Assembly: GCF_016904885.1 (NCBI RefSeq)
Contig: NZ_JADWYI010000001.1
Location: 2,046,001-2,110,000 of the forward strand
Direction of reading: 5' to 3'
From: Archangium primigenium
GTDB taxonomy: Bacteria > Myxococcota > Myxococcia > Myxococcales > Myxococcaceae
DNA length: 64,000 nt
Shown here: positions 52,445 through 60,680 of the stretch, piece after piece
Layout: each line of letters starts with the position of its first letter
Position numbering within the stretch: position 1 is the stretch's first letter
Position numbers and translations under genes: made by a program
The notes under the pieces: generated by a model
What the model was told of the DNA's origin: nothing
The model's input: only the letters and a program-made list of their open reading frames with translations
Databases searched by the model: none

Positions 52445-52586
52445 TTCGCCGCCTCCTTTCGCCCTCGTGGAGCGTGGGTCGCCTCATTGACCCGGAAGGT
52501 AGTGGGGAGGACCGACTTTTCAAGTCACGTGGGCTCCGCCAGCGGGGAGCGGTGTTGCGTGTGAAACAGGAGGGTGTTCTCGCCGG

Positions 52587-53261
52587 TCAATCCTCTTGGG
52601 AGGAAAACGGTTCCAAGAAGAGTCGAAGGCTGTGGTTGCGTGTGGCGCAGTCCGCGAGCGTGCGTCGCTTACGGAAGTCCCGGCTCAAGGTGTCGTGGGC
52701 GTCGTAGGCGCTCATCTGTGAGAGTTTCTTGCGCTCCTTTTCCGACTGCCGCTGGTCCAGTGCCCTGCGGAGCGCCTTCTTGGGGTCGCGCGTCGTGGAG
52801 GTGTCCTTCTGCTGATGGAGCGTCAGGATCCACGCTTCTGTCTCTTCCACGGCGATGGCGTAGTGGAACGTGGCTGAGGGGCGCCCGGAGAGCCACTCGT
52901 CGAGCTTCACCGCGACGCGCTTGCGCAATTCGATGGCGAAGTCCTTTGTCGAACCAGAGGGTCGGACGACGTCATAGCCGAGTTGCTCCGCCTCCGCGGT
53001 ATCGATGTGGATGACGACAAGTCGATCCTCGTCGAGCGGACTGTTCAAGAACTCATGCAACTGAGTGCCTGTCATGCATTCTTGCTTCACGAGCCCCCAG
53101 TTGCTGAACTGCTCCTCCGTCATGTTGTGGAGGTCTGTTTCGTCGAGTGCGTACTGGGGACGCAGTGGCTGGAAGTCCGCGGAGTCGAATCCAAGTCCCC
53201 TCAAGATATTGTAGATGACGGCGAGGTCTCCGCGTCCCTCCGCGATGATTCCAATGCGCAT
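52587..53261 (-). CDS. TOPRIM/DUF4276-like nuclease-type protein, partner of the AAA ATPase
   Basis: 224 residues from the ATG at 53261, 7 bases after the ATPase stop. The N-terminus MRIGIIAEGRGDLAV has the early Glu of TOPRIM-like folds (EG..D). A second acidic motif follows a hydrophobic strand at 83-90 (VIHIDTAE), and a third acidic patch is AVEETEAW (138-143). The C-terminus is basic (RDFRKRRTLADCATRN). An ATPase plus a small TOPRIM-like protein is the layout of several phage defence systems (OLD-like, PARIS-like). The family assignment is tentative. Codons ending in A/T are more common than in neighbouring genes. Confidence 0.7.
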   Translation of the reverse strand: MRIGIIAEGRGDLAVIYNILRGLGFDSADFQPLRPQYALDETDLHNMTEEQFSNWGLVKQECMTGTQLHEFLNSPLDEDRLVVIHIDTAEAEQLGYDVVRPSGSTKDFAIELRKRVAVKLDEWLSGRPSATFHYAIAVEETEAWILTLHQQKDTSTTRDPKKALRRALDQRQSEKERKKLSQMSAYDAHDTLSRDFRKRRTLADCATRNHSLRLFLEPFSSQED

Positions 53262-53268
53262 GGTCGGT

Positions 53269-54480
53269 TCAAAACGCGTTGGGAATACCGCCGAGGTGTC
53301 CACGCATCCACAATTCCGAGAGCTTGTACTGAGATTCGTCCTTGGTCTTGGGCTTGAGCTTGATTCGTTTCCCTTCGGTGTGTCCCTGGTCGTTGCGGCG
53401 AATGACGACAAGCCGCTGGTCGTCGTCGTGCAGGTCGAGCCCATCCAAGATGGCCGGATTGTGCGTGGTGATGAGCACCTGCTTGTCGTGGGCCTTGGCC
53501 ATGGCCGCGAGGGACTTCATCAACTCCCGGCAAAGCTGTGGGTTGAGCGCGGTCTCGATGTTGTCGATGGCGAAGATGGATGGAGTCTTGTCGCTCAGGA
53601 ACAAGGCCAGGTAGAAGAGGATGTGGAGGATGCCCTCGTTCGCGTTCTCCGCCGAGAACACGTTGTTGCCTTTCTTCATGAATCGGTCCCGGAAGTAGAG
53701 CCGGGAGGTGCTTCGCCCGAGTTTATGTCCCTTGAATTTCAGTTCGTCCTGCGTGTCGATGAGGAGATTGTCGAACCAGGGGATGAACTTGCTGTAGCGC
53801 ACGAGTTCGCGGCGCTGGGCCTGGGTCAGTTCCTCAAGGAAGACGTCGAGGTTTTCACCGTTGATGCCGAGCGGCAGCCTGCGACTGGTATTCTGGATGC
53901 CACGTAGCGCCAAGGGGTTGAGATTGTAGATGCAGAAACTCTTTAATTGCTGCTGCTGGAGGCTGAGATTGCTTCGGTGATTAACTGCGTTATCTAGAAA
54001 CTGCAGCATGGAAGCATCACTATGGGTTCTGCGCATGTCGCGCAGATTGGATAGAAGCTCCCCGATGAACGCTTGCTTATTCGAGAGATTTGAAATTGGC
54101 CCCTTGGCGGAGGCGGTGTCGACCTGCCATCCAGAGTCAATATTGCTGGCATCAGGATGAAGCGTGAGCTTGAGCCAGGGGGCCTCTTCGTCGTTGTTGG
54201 GGGCCTTCGGTGCGGAGGTGAGCGTCAACGCGATGGCTTGAGCGGATTTCTTTTGGAGAAAGGAGCTGATCGTGATGGATGGCTTGGCGATCCGAACGCC
54301 TCTCGTATAGAGTTCCTCGATTTCGAGTGAGCCATCCGAAGCCGCGCTCGCCGTGGCGAAAGCCTCGAGGATGTTGGTCTTGCCCGCGCCATTCTCGCCG
54401 ATGAGGACATTGATCCGCCCGAGTTCGAGCGTGTAGTCGAGGATCGACTTGAAATTCTGGATGTGGATCTTCTCGAGCAT
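53269..54480 (-). CDS. AAA ATPase (AAA_15/AAA_21, RecF/OLD-like)
   Basis: 403 residues. The N-terminus MLEKIHIQNFKSI and Walker A GENGAGKT at 28-35 are typical of RecF/OLD-type ABC ATPases. The ABC-like C-terminal part has NEGILHILFYLALF, Walker B FAIDNIETALNP (Asn where Glu usually follows Asp) and the H-loop TTHNPAILDGLDL. The middle is a less conserved helical insert. It is transcribed just before the TOPRIM-like gene. I infer an ATP-driven sensor in a two-gene defence or abortive-infection module. The gene is visibly less GC-rich than its neighbours, suggesting transfer. Confidence 0.85.
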   Translation of the reverse strand: MLEKIHIQNFKSILDYTLELGRINVLIGENGAGKTNILEAFATASAASDGSLEIEELYTRGVRIAKPSITISSFLQKKSAQAIALTLTSAPKAPNNDEEAPWLKLTLHPDASNIDSGWQVDTASAKGPISNLSNKQAFIGELLSNLRDMRRTHSDASMLQFLDNAVNHRSNLSLQQQQLKSFCIYNLNPLALRGIQNTSRRLPLGINGENLDVFLEELTQAQRRELVRYSKFIPWFDNLLIDTQDELKFKGHKLGRSTSRLYFRDRFMKKGNNVFSAENANEGILHILFYLALFLSDKTPSIFAIDNIETALNPQLCRELMKSLAAMAKAHDKQVLITTHNPAILDGLDLHDDDQRLVVIRRNDQGHTEGKRIKLKPKTKDESQYKLSELWMRGHLGGIPNAF

Positions 54481-54594
54481 GCAGGACGCAGCTTAGCCCC
54501 TACGGATAGGGACCCGGAAAGTTTGGGTCCAGGTCCACGGGCGTGGACACGTCTGGACGCGGTCGGGAAGCCCGTTTCGTGCTACCCGGAGGGC

Positions 54595-57860: not shown

Positions 57861-57924
57861 GGGTCCCACGCGCATGGCCCTTGCTTCCGGGGGCGTGAAC
57901 CCTTCGCCGTCGAGGTGAATGCCC

Positions 57925-59205
57925 ATGGCTGTCTTCTCCCCCCGCCGCGTCCTGGCCTGCGCCGCCGCGCTGCTGCTCTCCGCCTGTTCCGACTCCGAAC
58001 TCCCGCCCCTCAAGGATCCGCCCGGCAAGCGCGTGGGCTCGTCCGAGGAGCGCGTGCTCAAGCCCAAGGCCACGGCCGTGGAGGACATGGCCACGGTGGT
58101 GGCCGACAACACGGACCTGGGCGCGGAGCTGCTGAGGCTGAGCGCGCCCGGCACCAACGTCTTCTTCTCGCCGTACAGCATCACCCAGGCCCTGGGCATG
58201 GTGTACGCCGGGGCGCGCGGCGAGACGGAGGCGCAGATGGCGCGGGCCCTGCGCTTCTCCCTGCCCCAGGAGCGGCTGCACCCCGCCCGCAACGCGCTGG
58301 ACCTGGCGCTCCAGCCCCGCGCGAACAAGGACCGCTCGGGCAAACCCCTGCCCGCCTTCCGCGTGGTGAGCGCCACCTGGGGCCAGAAGGGGCTCGCGTT
58401 CGAGCCGGCCTTCCTGGACGTGCTCGCGCGCGACTACGGCGCGGCGATGTGGACGGTGGACTTCACCCAGGAGCCCGAGGCCCTCCGCGCGGACATCAAT
58501 GCGTGGGTCGAGGACCAGACGGCGGGCCGCATCCGGGACCTGGTCCAGTCCGGCGGGGTGACGCCCGCGACGCGGCTGATGCTCGTCAACGCGCTCTACT
58601 TCAAGGGCGCCTGGGTGGAGCCCTTCAAGGAGGGGGCGACCCGCGAGGTGCCCTTCCACCTGCTGTCGGGCGGGTCCAAGCCCGTGCCGATGATGGCGGG
58701 GGGCCAGGGCGGCCAGTACATGGCGGGCGAGGGCTTCGAGGCGGTGGCCCTGGCGTATCGCGGCGAGGAGTTCCGCATGCTCGTGGTGCTGCCCGCGGCG
58801 GGGCGCTTCGCCGAGGTGGAGGGGCGTCTGTCCTCGGGCCTGCTGGACGACGTCCACGCGCGCCTGAAGGCCCGGCCCATGAGCATCGCGCTGCCGCGCT
58901 TCCAGATGGAGTCGGAGTTGCCCCTGGGCGACGCGCTGCGCGCGCTGGGCATGGAGGCCGCCTTCAGCGAGCAGGCGGACTTCTCGGGCCTCATGCGGCG
59001 GGCGGCGCTGAGCCTCGGCCCGGTGAGCCACAAGGCCTTCGTGGCCGTGGACGAAGAGGGCACCGAGGCCGCCGCCGCCACGGCCGTGGGGGTGGTCCTG
59101 ACGTCCGCGCCCGAGCCCTTCGTCGTGGACCGGCCCTTCCTCTTCTTCATCGAGCACACGGCCACGAAGAACGTGCTCTTCCTCGGCCGCTACGTGTCTC
59201 CCTGA
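57925..59205 (+). CDS. Serpin-family lipoprotein protease inhibitor, copy 1
   Basis: 426 residues from the ATG at 57925, which has GAGGTG 7 bases upstream; the ATG two codons earlier overlaps that site. A lipoprotein signal ends in LLLSAC. The serpin fold shows NVFFSPYSITQAL, LMLVNALYFKGAW, and FRMLVVLP. The hinge before the reactive loop, EEGTEAAAAT, keeps the small-residue pattern of inhibitory serpins. The loop then reads AVGVVLTSAPEPF, with the cleavage site near LTS by counting from the hinge. It likely protects the cell surface from serine or cysteine proteases, its own or others'. Confidence 0.93.
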   Translation: MAVFSPRRVLACAAALLLSACSDSELPPLKDPPGKRVGSSEERVLKPKATAVEDMATVVADNTDLGAELLRLSAPGTNVFFSPYSITQALGMVYAGARGETEAQMARALRFSLPQERLHPARNALDLALQPRANKDRSGKPLPAFRVVSATWGQKGLAFEPAFLDVLARDYGAAMWTVDFTQEPEALRADINAWVEDQTAGRIRDLVQSGGVTPATRLMLVNALYFKGAWVEPFKEGATREVPFHLLSGGSKPVPMMAGGQGGQYMAGEGFEAVALAYRGEEFRMLVVLPAAGRFAEVEGRLSSGLLDDVHARLKARPMSIALPRFQMESELPLGDALRALGMEAAFSEQADFSGLMRRAALSLGPVSHKAFVAVDEEGTEAAAATAVGVVLTSAPEPFVVDRPFLFFIEHTATKNVLFLGRYVSP

Positions 59206-59218
59206 GGCGAGCGGGGGC

Positions 59219-59240
59219 GGCCCTCGGATTTCCGAGGGCC
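59219..59240. repeat. Hairpin between the serpin genes
   Basis: A perfect 9-bp inverted repeat GGCCCTCGG / CCGAGGGCC with an ATTT loop, 13 bases after the serpin 1 stop. It may terminate serpin 1, and it also matches the palindrome placed upstream of serpin 1, so it belongs to the copied leader block. Confidence 0.65.
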
Positions 59241-59259
59241 CCTGGCGGCGCGCGGGGGC

Positions 59260-59282
59260 GCAAGGCATTGAAGTTGTTCGGC
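59260..59282 (+). promoter_or_regulatory. 23-base element shared by both serpin leaders, copy 2
   Basis: Identical to 57838-57860, 63 bases before the serpin 2 start and 19 bases after the upstream hairpin. A GTGCACG-N4-TTGCT sequence at 59291-59306 resembles a sigma-54 promoter but lacks the -24 GG. Confidence 0.6.
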
Positions 59283-59345
59283 CCCGGCATGTGCACGGCG
59301 TTTGCTTGTTCGCGGCGCGAACCGAGCCGTCTCGAGAGGACACGC

Positions 59346-60680
59346 ATGACTTCATACCGCCGGGGATTCGCCATCGGATGTGCCACCGCGCTGCTGCTCA
59401 CGGGCTGTGGGCCCGCGCCAGCGCCCGAGTCCACGCCCACACCGGAGTCGCCGGGGCTGGACACGCGCTGCCTCTGTGAGCCGCCGGTGCCCGTCACGGG
59501 CGCGCCGGGCGAGGCCGTGTCCTCGTCGGCGCCCCGGGAGCTGGCGCCCGGCGCCACGTCCCAGGAGATGGCGGTGGCCGTCGCGGGCAACACGGACTTC
59601 GGCGCGGCGCTGCTGCGGCTGAGCCAGCCCGGCGCCAACGTCTTCTTCTCGCCGTACAGCATCTCCCAGGCGCTGAGCATGGTGTACGCCGGCGCGCGCG
59701 GGGAGACCGCGGCCCAGATGTCCGAGGTGTTCGGCTTCTCGCTGTCCCAGGAGCGGCACCACCCCGCCATGAACGCGGTGGAGCTGGCGATGCAGCCGGG
59801 CACGGCGGGCGGCACCGGGGGCACGCCGCCCACGCTCCGGGTGGTCAATGGCCTCTGGGGCCGGCAGGGCTTCGCGTTCGAGCCGGCCTTCCTGGACGTG
59901 CTCGCCCGGCAGTATGGCGCGGGCATGCGCGTGGTGGACTTCTCCCAGAACGCGCCCGCCATCCGCGAGCAGATCAACGGCTGGGTCGCCGAGCAGACGA
60001 TGAACCGCATCAAGGAGCTGTTGCCCGTGGGCGGGGTGAAGCCCGACACGGCGCTGATGCTCGTCAACGCGCTCTACTTCAAGGGCGCGTGGGCCACGCC
60101 CTTCTCCAAGCAGGGCACCGCCGACGCACCCTTCCTCGCGCTCGACGGCCAGACGCGCCCGGTGCCCACGATGCGGGGCGGCACGGGGCAGTACATGAAG
60201 GGGCAGGGCTTCGAGGCGGTGTCCCTGGACTACCAGGGCCGGGAGTTCCGCATGCTCGTGGTGCTGCCCGATGCGGGGCGCTTCGCGCAGGTGGAGGGCC
60301 AGCTGTCCTCGGCCTTCCTCAAGGACGTCCGCTCGCGCCTGTCCTCGCGCTCCCTGGACCTCCGGATGCCGCGCTTCGAGGTGGAGACGGCCCTGCCGCT
60401 CATCCCGCCGCTGCGCTCGCTGGGCATGGAGGTGGCCTTCACCGGCCAGGCGGACTTCACGGGCATGGCGCGCGGCGCGGCGCTGACGATCAGCTCGGCG
60501 AGCCACAAGGCCTTCGTGTCCGTGAACGAGCTGGGCACCGAGGCCGCCGCCGCCACCGAGGTGGGCATGGGCCCGCCGTCCGTCCCCGAGCCCTTCGCCG
60601 TCAACCGGCCCTTCCTCTTCACCATCGAGCACGTGGCCACGGGCAACGTGCTCTTCCTCGGACGCTACGTGTCGCCCTGA
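59346..60680 (+). CDS. Serpin-family lipoprotein protease inhibitor, copy 2
   Basis: 444 residues. The lipoprotein signal ends in LLLTGC and is followed by a Pro/Thr-rich spacer. The body is close to copy 1 (NVFFSPYSISQAL, LMLVNALYFKGAW). The hinge NELGTEAAAAT is kept, but the reactive loop is different (EVGMGPPSVPEPF), so it should inhibit a different protease. The gene overlaps the convergent acyltransferase-like gene by 16 bases at its 3' end. A tandem duplication of serpin 1 with its leader is likely. Confidence 0.93.
   Translation: MTSYRRGFAIGCATALLLTGCGPAPAPESTPTPESPGLDTRCLCEPPVPVTGAPGEAVSSSAPRELAPGATSQEMAVAVAGNTDFGAALLRLSQPGANVFFSPYSISQALSMVYAGARGETAAQMSEVFGFSLSQERHHPAMNAVELAMQPGTAGGTGGTPPTLRVVNGLWGRQGFAFEPAFLDVLARQYGAGMRVVDFSQNAPAIREQINGWVAEQTMNRIKELLPVGGVKPDTALMLVNALYFKGAWATPFSKQGTADAPFLALDGQTRPVPTMRGGTGQYMKGQGFEAVSLDYQGREFRMLVVLPDAGRFAQVEGQLSSAFLKDVRSRLSSRSLDLRMPRFEVETALPLIPPLRSLGMEVAFTGQADFTGMARGAALTISSASHKAFVSVNELGTEAAAATEVGMGPPSVPEPFAVNRPFLFTIEHVATGNVLFLGRYVSP

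Follow-up and report, generated by a model that had tools for sequence, protein, structure and literature searches.

What does a two-gene block that is far richer in A and T than its surroundings do in the genome of Archangium primigenium, and is it a defense module that moves on its own? The pair lies in a stretch of 64 kb (here, the window) of a host genome of 9.49 Mb. The original prediction had described two genes separated by 7 bases, with a base use unlike that of the flanks, and both points held: on the minus strand, open reading frames of 403 amino acids (A) and 224 amino acids (B) occupy the positions listed in Table 1, and the GC content of the pair is 0.575, whereas segments of 1.9 kb from the rest of the window (51 to 55 kb excluded) have 0.722 +/- 0.026 (z -5.6), the lowest reaching 0.648. 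Mechanical calling extends B to 285 amino acids with a start upstream inside A, and its start was set at 53261 because of the homologues. The short spacing suggests that A and B are cotranscribed; scans for promoters and terminators and folding of the 3' flank gave no signal exceeding that of shuffled sequences.

Table 1. Coordinates of the A-B pair and its motifs in the window, and of the restriction-like operons of Bacteroidota relatives
Feature	Position	Strand	Evidence
Gene A, OLD-type ABC ATPase, PDC-M31A family, 403 aa	53269..54480	-	PADLOC PDC-M31A E 1.3e-87
Gene B, TOPRIM-like/DUF4276-superfamily candidate protein, PDC-M31B family, 224 aa	52587..53261	-	PADLOC E 3e-7; DUF4276 profile E 4.4e-7; model pLDDT 84.7
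7-base spacer, A stop to B start	53262..53268	-	read from sequence
A Walker A, residues 28-35, GENGAGKT	54376..54399	-	G28 and K34 in 23/23 A proteins
A Walker B D306, then N307	53560..53565	-	D306 in 22/23, N307 in 22/23 A proteins
A H-loop histidine H340	53461..53463	-	23/23 A proteins
B motif 1, E8-G-R-G-D12	53226..53240	-	E8 and D12 in 24/24; E8 placed like the metal A Glu of OLD, D12 like its metal B acid (+4)
B motif 2, D87-T-A-E-A-E92, second Asp of DxD replaced	52986..53003	-	D87 in 24/24; position 89 D in 17/24, A in 7/24
B motif 3, E140-T-E142-A-W144	52830..52844	-	position 142 acid in 23/24, W144 in 24/24
DNA block common to window and G034 copy	52586..54500	.	84.7% and 86.3% identity to L032, two pieces
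Restriction-like operons	L004 2762-5999, L005 2762-5999, L006 2774-5999		PstI-type HTH fused to ATPase

No known defense gene was found among the immediate neighbors of the pair in the window. P0002 (51581-52444, minus strand; 287 amino acids), the third gene of the A/T-richer stretch, was weighed as a possible further part of the system and rejected, as it has no family match and no A-B pair stands beside the ten relatives examined. It has matches, patchily spread, in 24 of the 96 genomes of the bacterial family, its own included, and its relatives are 370 to 430 amino acids long without a Pfam match; P0002 seems short of about 90 C-terminal residues and is probably a decayed, truncated, and unrelated gene of another island. 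Farther along, at 57919-60680, two tandem serpin-like genes follow a GH6-like gene (names from inspection and plasmid annotations), and three congeners keep the serpin, GH6, and pseudouridine synthase genes in synteny.

Family assignment of the two proteins

A matches PDC-M31A of PADLOC at E 1.3e-87 over residues 1 to 401, the next best family reaching 1.6e-35, and its Pfam matches (AAA_21, E 1.1e-21; AAA_15, 1.4e-19; SMC_N, 1.7e-11) confirm the RecF/OLD-type ATPase that had been read from the sequence. The best PADLOC family for B is PDC-M31B, with weak scores (E 3e-7 and 5.3e-6). With a PDC-M31A ATPase and an adjacent, weakly matching PDC-M31B protein at 7-base spacing, the pair belongs to PDC-M31, which is the best family for both proteins and has the same two-gene order; the window copy differs in its weak B match and in a clade-specific D-T-A-E in place of DxD (hereafter, the DTAE clade). 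The suggestion that the family might be new was not sustained, since PADLOC already lists PDC-M31 as a candidate. Such PDCs are described, in the available part of PMC12988326, as guilt-by-embedding candidates that are mostly unvalidated. We found no mention of PDC-M31 or of DUF4276 in the open-access literature, the scope of the search leaving aside most subscription papers and preprints. The family is known as an unvalidated candidate, without published validation in the open-access literature searched; new here are the clade-specific active site, the Asn of the ATPase, the minimal mobile unit, and the contexts beside P2-type portal genes and in restriction-like operons.

A likeness of B to DUF4276 had also been proposed. 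By itself, the window B protein matches no Pfam family above chance, with no DUF4276 (PF14103) match at E up to 1, and no family of NCBIfam or PHROG; no AriB or DUF4435 match appears in it at E up to 1 in Pfam and PADLOC. At the level of full-length profiles, the proposal stood: by hhalign, the profile of 20 B proteins aligned with that of the DUF4276 proteins of 20 loci from the same bacterial family at 92.7% (E 4.4e-7, 201 columns). The motif 1 Glu and the E-A of motif 3 fall in matching columns of this alignment, and as a control, the B profile against the A ATPase gave 0.1%. The DTAE clade alone scored lower against the DUF4276 profile (49.6%, E 1.7e-4), and the match of the B profile to OLD-like TOPRIM domains was not significant (3.4%, hhalign). 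Moreover, Pfam on alignment A3 detected DUF4276 in 2 of 12 proteins (best, 7.3e-7) and RloB in 1 of 12 (1.9e-4), and a cyanobacterial plasmid relative carries a DUF4276 annotation. Judged from these profiles, B is a remote relative of DUF4276. As a separate observation, the same genome carries three further DUF4276 genes above the Pfam cut-off (G000 C1:6714412, 596708, and 6595204), none of which is B.

Beyond PDC-M31, several known systems come close to the pair. HEC-01 and PDC-M25 of PADLOC have related ATPases (E 5e-32 and 2e-35), and B matches HEC-01B weakly (5e-4), but these scores lie clearly below those of PDC-M31. PARIS encodes an ATPase (AriA) and a TOPRIM-type effector (AriB) as separate adjacent genes, whereas our pair has no AriB/DUF4435 match and AriA is not the best match of its ATPase. 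The AbiLi/AbiLii systems and the AAA:RloB pairs (NetFlax D29:D44) join an AAA ATPase to an RloB/OLD_TOPRIM effector, and one relative of B matches RloB, but A matches AbiLi less well (7.3e-21) and the window B has no RloB match; RloB is described as related to OLD_TOPRIM domains and comparable AAA/TOPRIM-RloB pairs as toxin-antitoxin systems (PMC10440598, available part). The OLD nucleases of classes 1 and 2, including GajA of Gabija, likewise combine an ABC ATPase with a TOPRIM domain having the acids E, an acid at +4, D, and then E, but in our case the two are separate polypeptides, no helicase lies among the immediate neighbors, and the window B lacks the second Asp of DxD.

Predicted active sites and fold

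Canonical ABC ATPases have their catalytic Glu directly after the Walker B Asp. All 23 A proteins compared keep the Gly and Lys of Walker A and the His of the H-loop, and the residue following the Walker B Asp is Asn in 22 proteins and Ser in the remaining one. Because Asn occupies the position of the catalytic Glu, A may hydrolyze ATP slowly or not at all. A nonhydrolyzing A would not be unique, since GajA is likewise reported to lack ATP hydrolysis in the available part of PMC10568477.

The Glu/Asp motifs that the original prediction had noticed in B proved conserved far beyond chance, with E8, D12, D87, and W144 invariant in all 24 B proteins and an acid at position 142 in 23. DxD is present in 17 of the 24, and the seven others, with D87-T-A89, form the DTAE clade of the window, which changes together at position 89 (Ala for Asp), position 90 (Glu), and position 140 (Glu); position 140 is Ser in 10 of the 24. 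Because the same seven members group together whether the tree is built from A (96/96) or from B (100/100), across Myxococcota, Desulfobacterales, and Bacteroidota, we regard DTAE as a kept variant and not as decay.

In OLD nucleases, a Glu and both aspartates of DxD coordinate metal A, and the acid at +4 from that Glu, together with a T/S-x-E, coordinates metal B, the residues being E400, D455, D457, E404, T506, and E508 in Burkholderia pseudomallei OLD and E377, D431, D433, D381, S478, and E480 in Thermus scotoductus OLD (available parts of PMC6755086 and PMC7049728). B resembles them in both pattern and spacing, with E8, D12 at +4, D87, and E142. Single alanine changes at DxD are reported to be tolerated in vitro by the B. 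pseudomallei enzyme (PMC6755086, available part), whereas each of them is reported to have abolished killing by P2 OLD in vivo; Ala 89 in B might therefore be either tolerated or disabling.

The AlphaFold model of B (pLDDT 84.7, pTM 0.85) has the order strand-Glu-helix, strand-Asp, strand-acid, as a TOPRIM domain requires. In the fold search with this model, OLD TOPRIM domains took ranks 1, 2, 4, 5, and 8, with Z scores of 5.8 to 5.1 that chance could produce (rmsd 4.8-5.7 over 141-162 residues), lumazine synthase scoring 5.5. B residue 2 is paired with 371 at the start of the alignment to 6p74, and B residue 1 with 393 at the start of that to 6nk8, so that OLD E377 (6p74) and E400 (6nk8) would fall on E8 of B if these alignments are ungapped. 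With the model of a relative (pLDDT 74.7), lumazine synthase came first (Z 7.4) and no OLD protein stood among the best 50 matches; Foldseek with both models against PDB and viral libraries returned nothing under E 0.001. AriB, RNase M5, and DnaG are absent among the fold matches listed, which excludes nothing. Altogether, the motifs and a weak fold match lean toward a TOPRIM-like site in B, of the OLD TOPRIM kind.

Distribution, mobility, and genetic contexts

The comparison set consisted of 24 B and 23 A proteins, L091/L023 contributing B only at a contig edge. Left out were L002 (same contig as L009), L031 (a 48-residue fragment), and L093 (almost identical to L092, with its A gene beyond the contig end). 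Two groups of candidate homologues were rejected: L007, a phosphoribosyltransferase-like open reading frame with only the string around EETEAW in common, and L010-L014 (G074-G078), partial matches of 85 to 86 residues at E 5e-5 to 5e-4 that were judged spurious, the L012 match lying on the opposite strand of a polyketide-synthase-like open reading frame and the other four matching the same part of the query.

Wherever both genes are visible, B directly follows A (23 of 23 loci), and the loci span Myxococcota, Desulfobacterales, Bacteroidota, plasmids, and viral contigs. The pair is rare. At E 0.001, it was found in 8 of the 96 genomes of the bacterial family, a number that falls to 3 of 96 once the five spurious short partial matches are removed; it occurs in 6 of 195 genomes of the phylum and, query genomes counted, in 2 of 345 genomes in each of two other phyla, those to which the Desulfobacterales genome and a Bacteroidota genome belong.

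In its own genome, in G034, and in G005, the pair stands at three unrelated sites. The similarity of the G034 copy to the window DNA ends at the limits of the common block (Table 1), and since it stops just outside the pair, the mobile cassette is made of the two genes alone. In G034, the pair is flanked by a permease gene on one side and by a NUDIX-like gene on the other (names by inspection); the same junction has about 140 bases and no pair in G033 and another, transporter-like gene in G032, and the comparison of these junctions established no target duplication. In its own genome, the segment 51548-54573 lies between glycosyltransferase and pseudouridine synthase genes and is missing at both matching places of three congeners (12-Mb genomes), where about 40-49 kb separate the two flank genes; this spot has probably undergone a large deletion or rearrangement. 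No integrase or transposase was recognized beside the pair, where part of the open reading frames was scanned against families, and three myxobacterial genomes hold it in the chromosome by itself, no genes of mobile elements being recognized nearby. The mobile character that had been predicted is borne out by the patchy occurrence, the unrelated sites, and the confinement of the window-G034 similarity to the pair. Vertical inheritance across the genus, named in advance as the outcome that would speak against it, is contradicted by the presence of the pair in 2 of the 4 genus genomes examined (its own and G034), at different sites. Horizontal transfer of the pair is strong. Archangium violaceum (G005) holds two divergent copies, of the DTAE and DTD types (contigs C165 and C322; L033 and L034).

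Among plasmids, A occurs in 8 records, with B following it in the 6 of 6 that were read, including a 5.8-kb mobilizable Paracoccus plasmid and the conjugative plasmid pE5_001 of Enterobacter hormaechei (L154, 4001-9185). The A-B pair of pE5_001 is very divergent, with a B that has no acid at position 142, and the next annotated gene after it encodes a SAVED domain. Among 50,697 phage records, B had no match and A one partial match, and six IMG/VR contigs carry B. On three of these six (L092, L094, and L095), the pair adjoins the gene of a P2-type portal (phrog_68, E at most 3.1e-137), beyond which lies a terminase gene whose family was checked on L092; the other neighbor on L092 is a Rha-like regulator, and a replication gene was not found there. 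On L096, terminase genes lie downstream of the pair. P2-like phages are described as having an anti-phage hotspot, which includes old and tin, in the interval from gpA to the portal gene gpQ (PMC9122126, available part).

A further context comes from three Bacteroidota loci (L004, L005, and L006), in which a longer A begins with the HTH domain of BsuBI/PstI restriction endonucleases (BsuBI_PstI_RE_N; Pfam E 2.4e-38 in L005 and 2.9e-39 in L006). In L004, PADLOC places REase_II (E 4.1e-36) at residues 20-161 and PDC-M31A at residues 170-559. An Eco57I/N6-type adenine methyltransferase gene stands directly upstream of A (MTase_II, E 7e-108 to 2e-110), B follows A, and all three B proteins belong to the DTAE clade of the window. 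As L004 and L005 are close relatives, these loci count as about two independent cases. They share the methyltransferase type and HTH domain of BsuBI/PstI type II restriction-modification, but ATPase and B replace its nuclease domain; the PstI nuclease domain is not among the domain matches of the three loci. With A fused to a PstI-type domain and placed after a methyltransferase, the pair occupies the place of the restriction nuclease. The window pair differs: Pfam, run on A and B and on their two neighboring genes, detected neither the HTH domain nor a methyltransferase. We found no report of BsuBI combined with TOPRIM in the open-access literature, most subscription papers and preprints again lying outside the search; RM-like ABC/TOPRIM operons may figure in an earlier ABC-ATPase survey (reference 52 of PMC12839542). 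The portal neighbors, the SAVED-domain gene, and the restriction-like operons are contexts of the defense type. Most of the original interpretation, a mobile ATPase plus TOPRIM-like pair of the general OLD/PARIS kind, is thereby supported.

A probable anti-phage role and its alternatives

We propose that the pair is probably a mobile two-gene anti-phage module of PDC-M31, in which an OLD-type ABC ATPase works with a separate TOPRIM-like nuclease. We consider a defense role highly probable; that B is a nuclease appears quite likely, and DNA is modestly favored over RNA as its target. In the model, A would bind ATP through the motif present in it, would form a complex with B, as the constant pairing suggests, and would keep B inactive or aim it. 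Given the family-wide Asn, A might act as an ATP-bound clamp or as a nucleotide sensor. An infection signal would then free or activate B, a putative metal-dependent nuclease acting via E8, D12, D87, and E142, as its match to the OLD motifs suggests, and B would cut nucleic acid and stop the phage, probably at a cost to the cell. The weak match of B to PDC-M31B, the missing second Asp of DxD, and the weak fold match weigh against this reading, as do the lack of a Pfam DUF4276 match in the window B, the nonsignificant profile match to OLD-like TOPRIM domains, the lack of a known defense gene among the immediate neighbors, and the other jobs that OLD-family ATPases such as Cran1 can have.

Several other readings have to be weighed. 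The pair could be a restriction-type DNA nuclease, in which A would recognize foreign DNA or replication intermediates and B would cut DNA, the HTH domain and the methyltransferase of the Bacteroidota adding site specificity. The fusion of BsuBI_PstI_RE_N to A with MTase_II directly upstream, the membership of the Bacteroidota B proteins in the window's clade, and the DNA cleavage reported for OLD TOPRIM enzymes (available parts of PMC10568477, PMC6755086, and PMC7049728) make this a serious contender, which we nevertheless hold short of probable: of the three Bacteroidota loci, two nearly duplicate each other, and as the window A has neither the HTH domain nor an adjacent methyltransferase, the choice between self and nonself would need another basis. 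In the DTAE clade, DNA is a somewhat likelier target than tRNA on account of the restriction DNA-binding domain and the methyltransferase found in its Bacteroidota members. Their operons are the strongest hint for a DNA target, although they could also be read as a guard firing once restriction fails. A PARIS-like guard, in which A would sense a phage anti-restriction or other protein and free B to cut host tRNA in an abortive arrest of translation, is a tentative alternative. The gene order, ATPase then small TOPRIM-like effector, is the same, A matches AriA at 7.4e-26, and AriB, held by an AriA hexamer, is described as a tRNA nuclease that uses two metals at a site resembling that of RNase M5 (PMC12409363, available part), while AAA partners are reported to neutralize RloB/TOPRIM_OLD toxins (PMC10440598, available part); against it, neither AriB nor DUF4435 matches B at E 1, A matches other families far better than AriA, and in Bacteroidota, A bears a restriction DNA-binding domain.

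That B is a toxin and A its antitoxin, serving the persistence of mobile elements with defense as a by-product, we consider unlikely. The pair is among the few genes of small mobilizable plasmids, and AAA/TOPRIM-RloB pairs score as toxin-antitoxin systems (PMC10440598, available part), but three myxobacterial genomes hold the pair alone in the chromosome, and the prophage hotspot and the restriction context favor defense. A DNA-repair or housekeeping role of an OLD/RecF-like pair is very improbable: A is similar to RecF/SMC_N, and Cran1, an OLD-family ATPase, is reported to have a cell-cycle role (PMC12796447, available part), so that other jobs are possible for such ATPases, but the pair is rare, patchy, mobile, and foreign in base composition.

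Within the proposed anti-phage module, a further though doubtful hypothesis is that of a portable effector cartridge that would replace the nuclease of a restriction system, giving a three-gene restriction-modification system with a methyltransferase in Bacteroidota, of which the window copy would be the same machine without its modification arm. Its two-metal site would be retuned (D-x-A-E, with the extra Glu 140) and gated by an ATPase that binds ATP and hardly hydrolyzes it.

PDC-M31 is one of many candidate systems listed in databases without a test. It now has a minimal unit of two genes and 1.9 kb with nothing else moving along, a prophage-hotspot context, and residues to mutate. Moreover, the relatives fused to a restriction DNA-binding domain constitute a natural experiment, and the question of a DNA or tRNA target thereby becomes directly testable.
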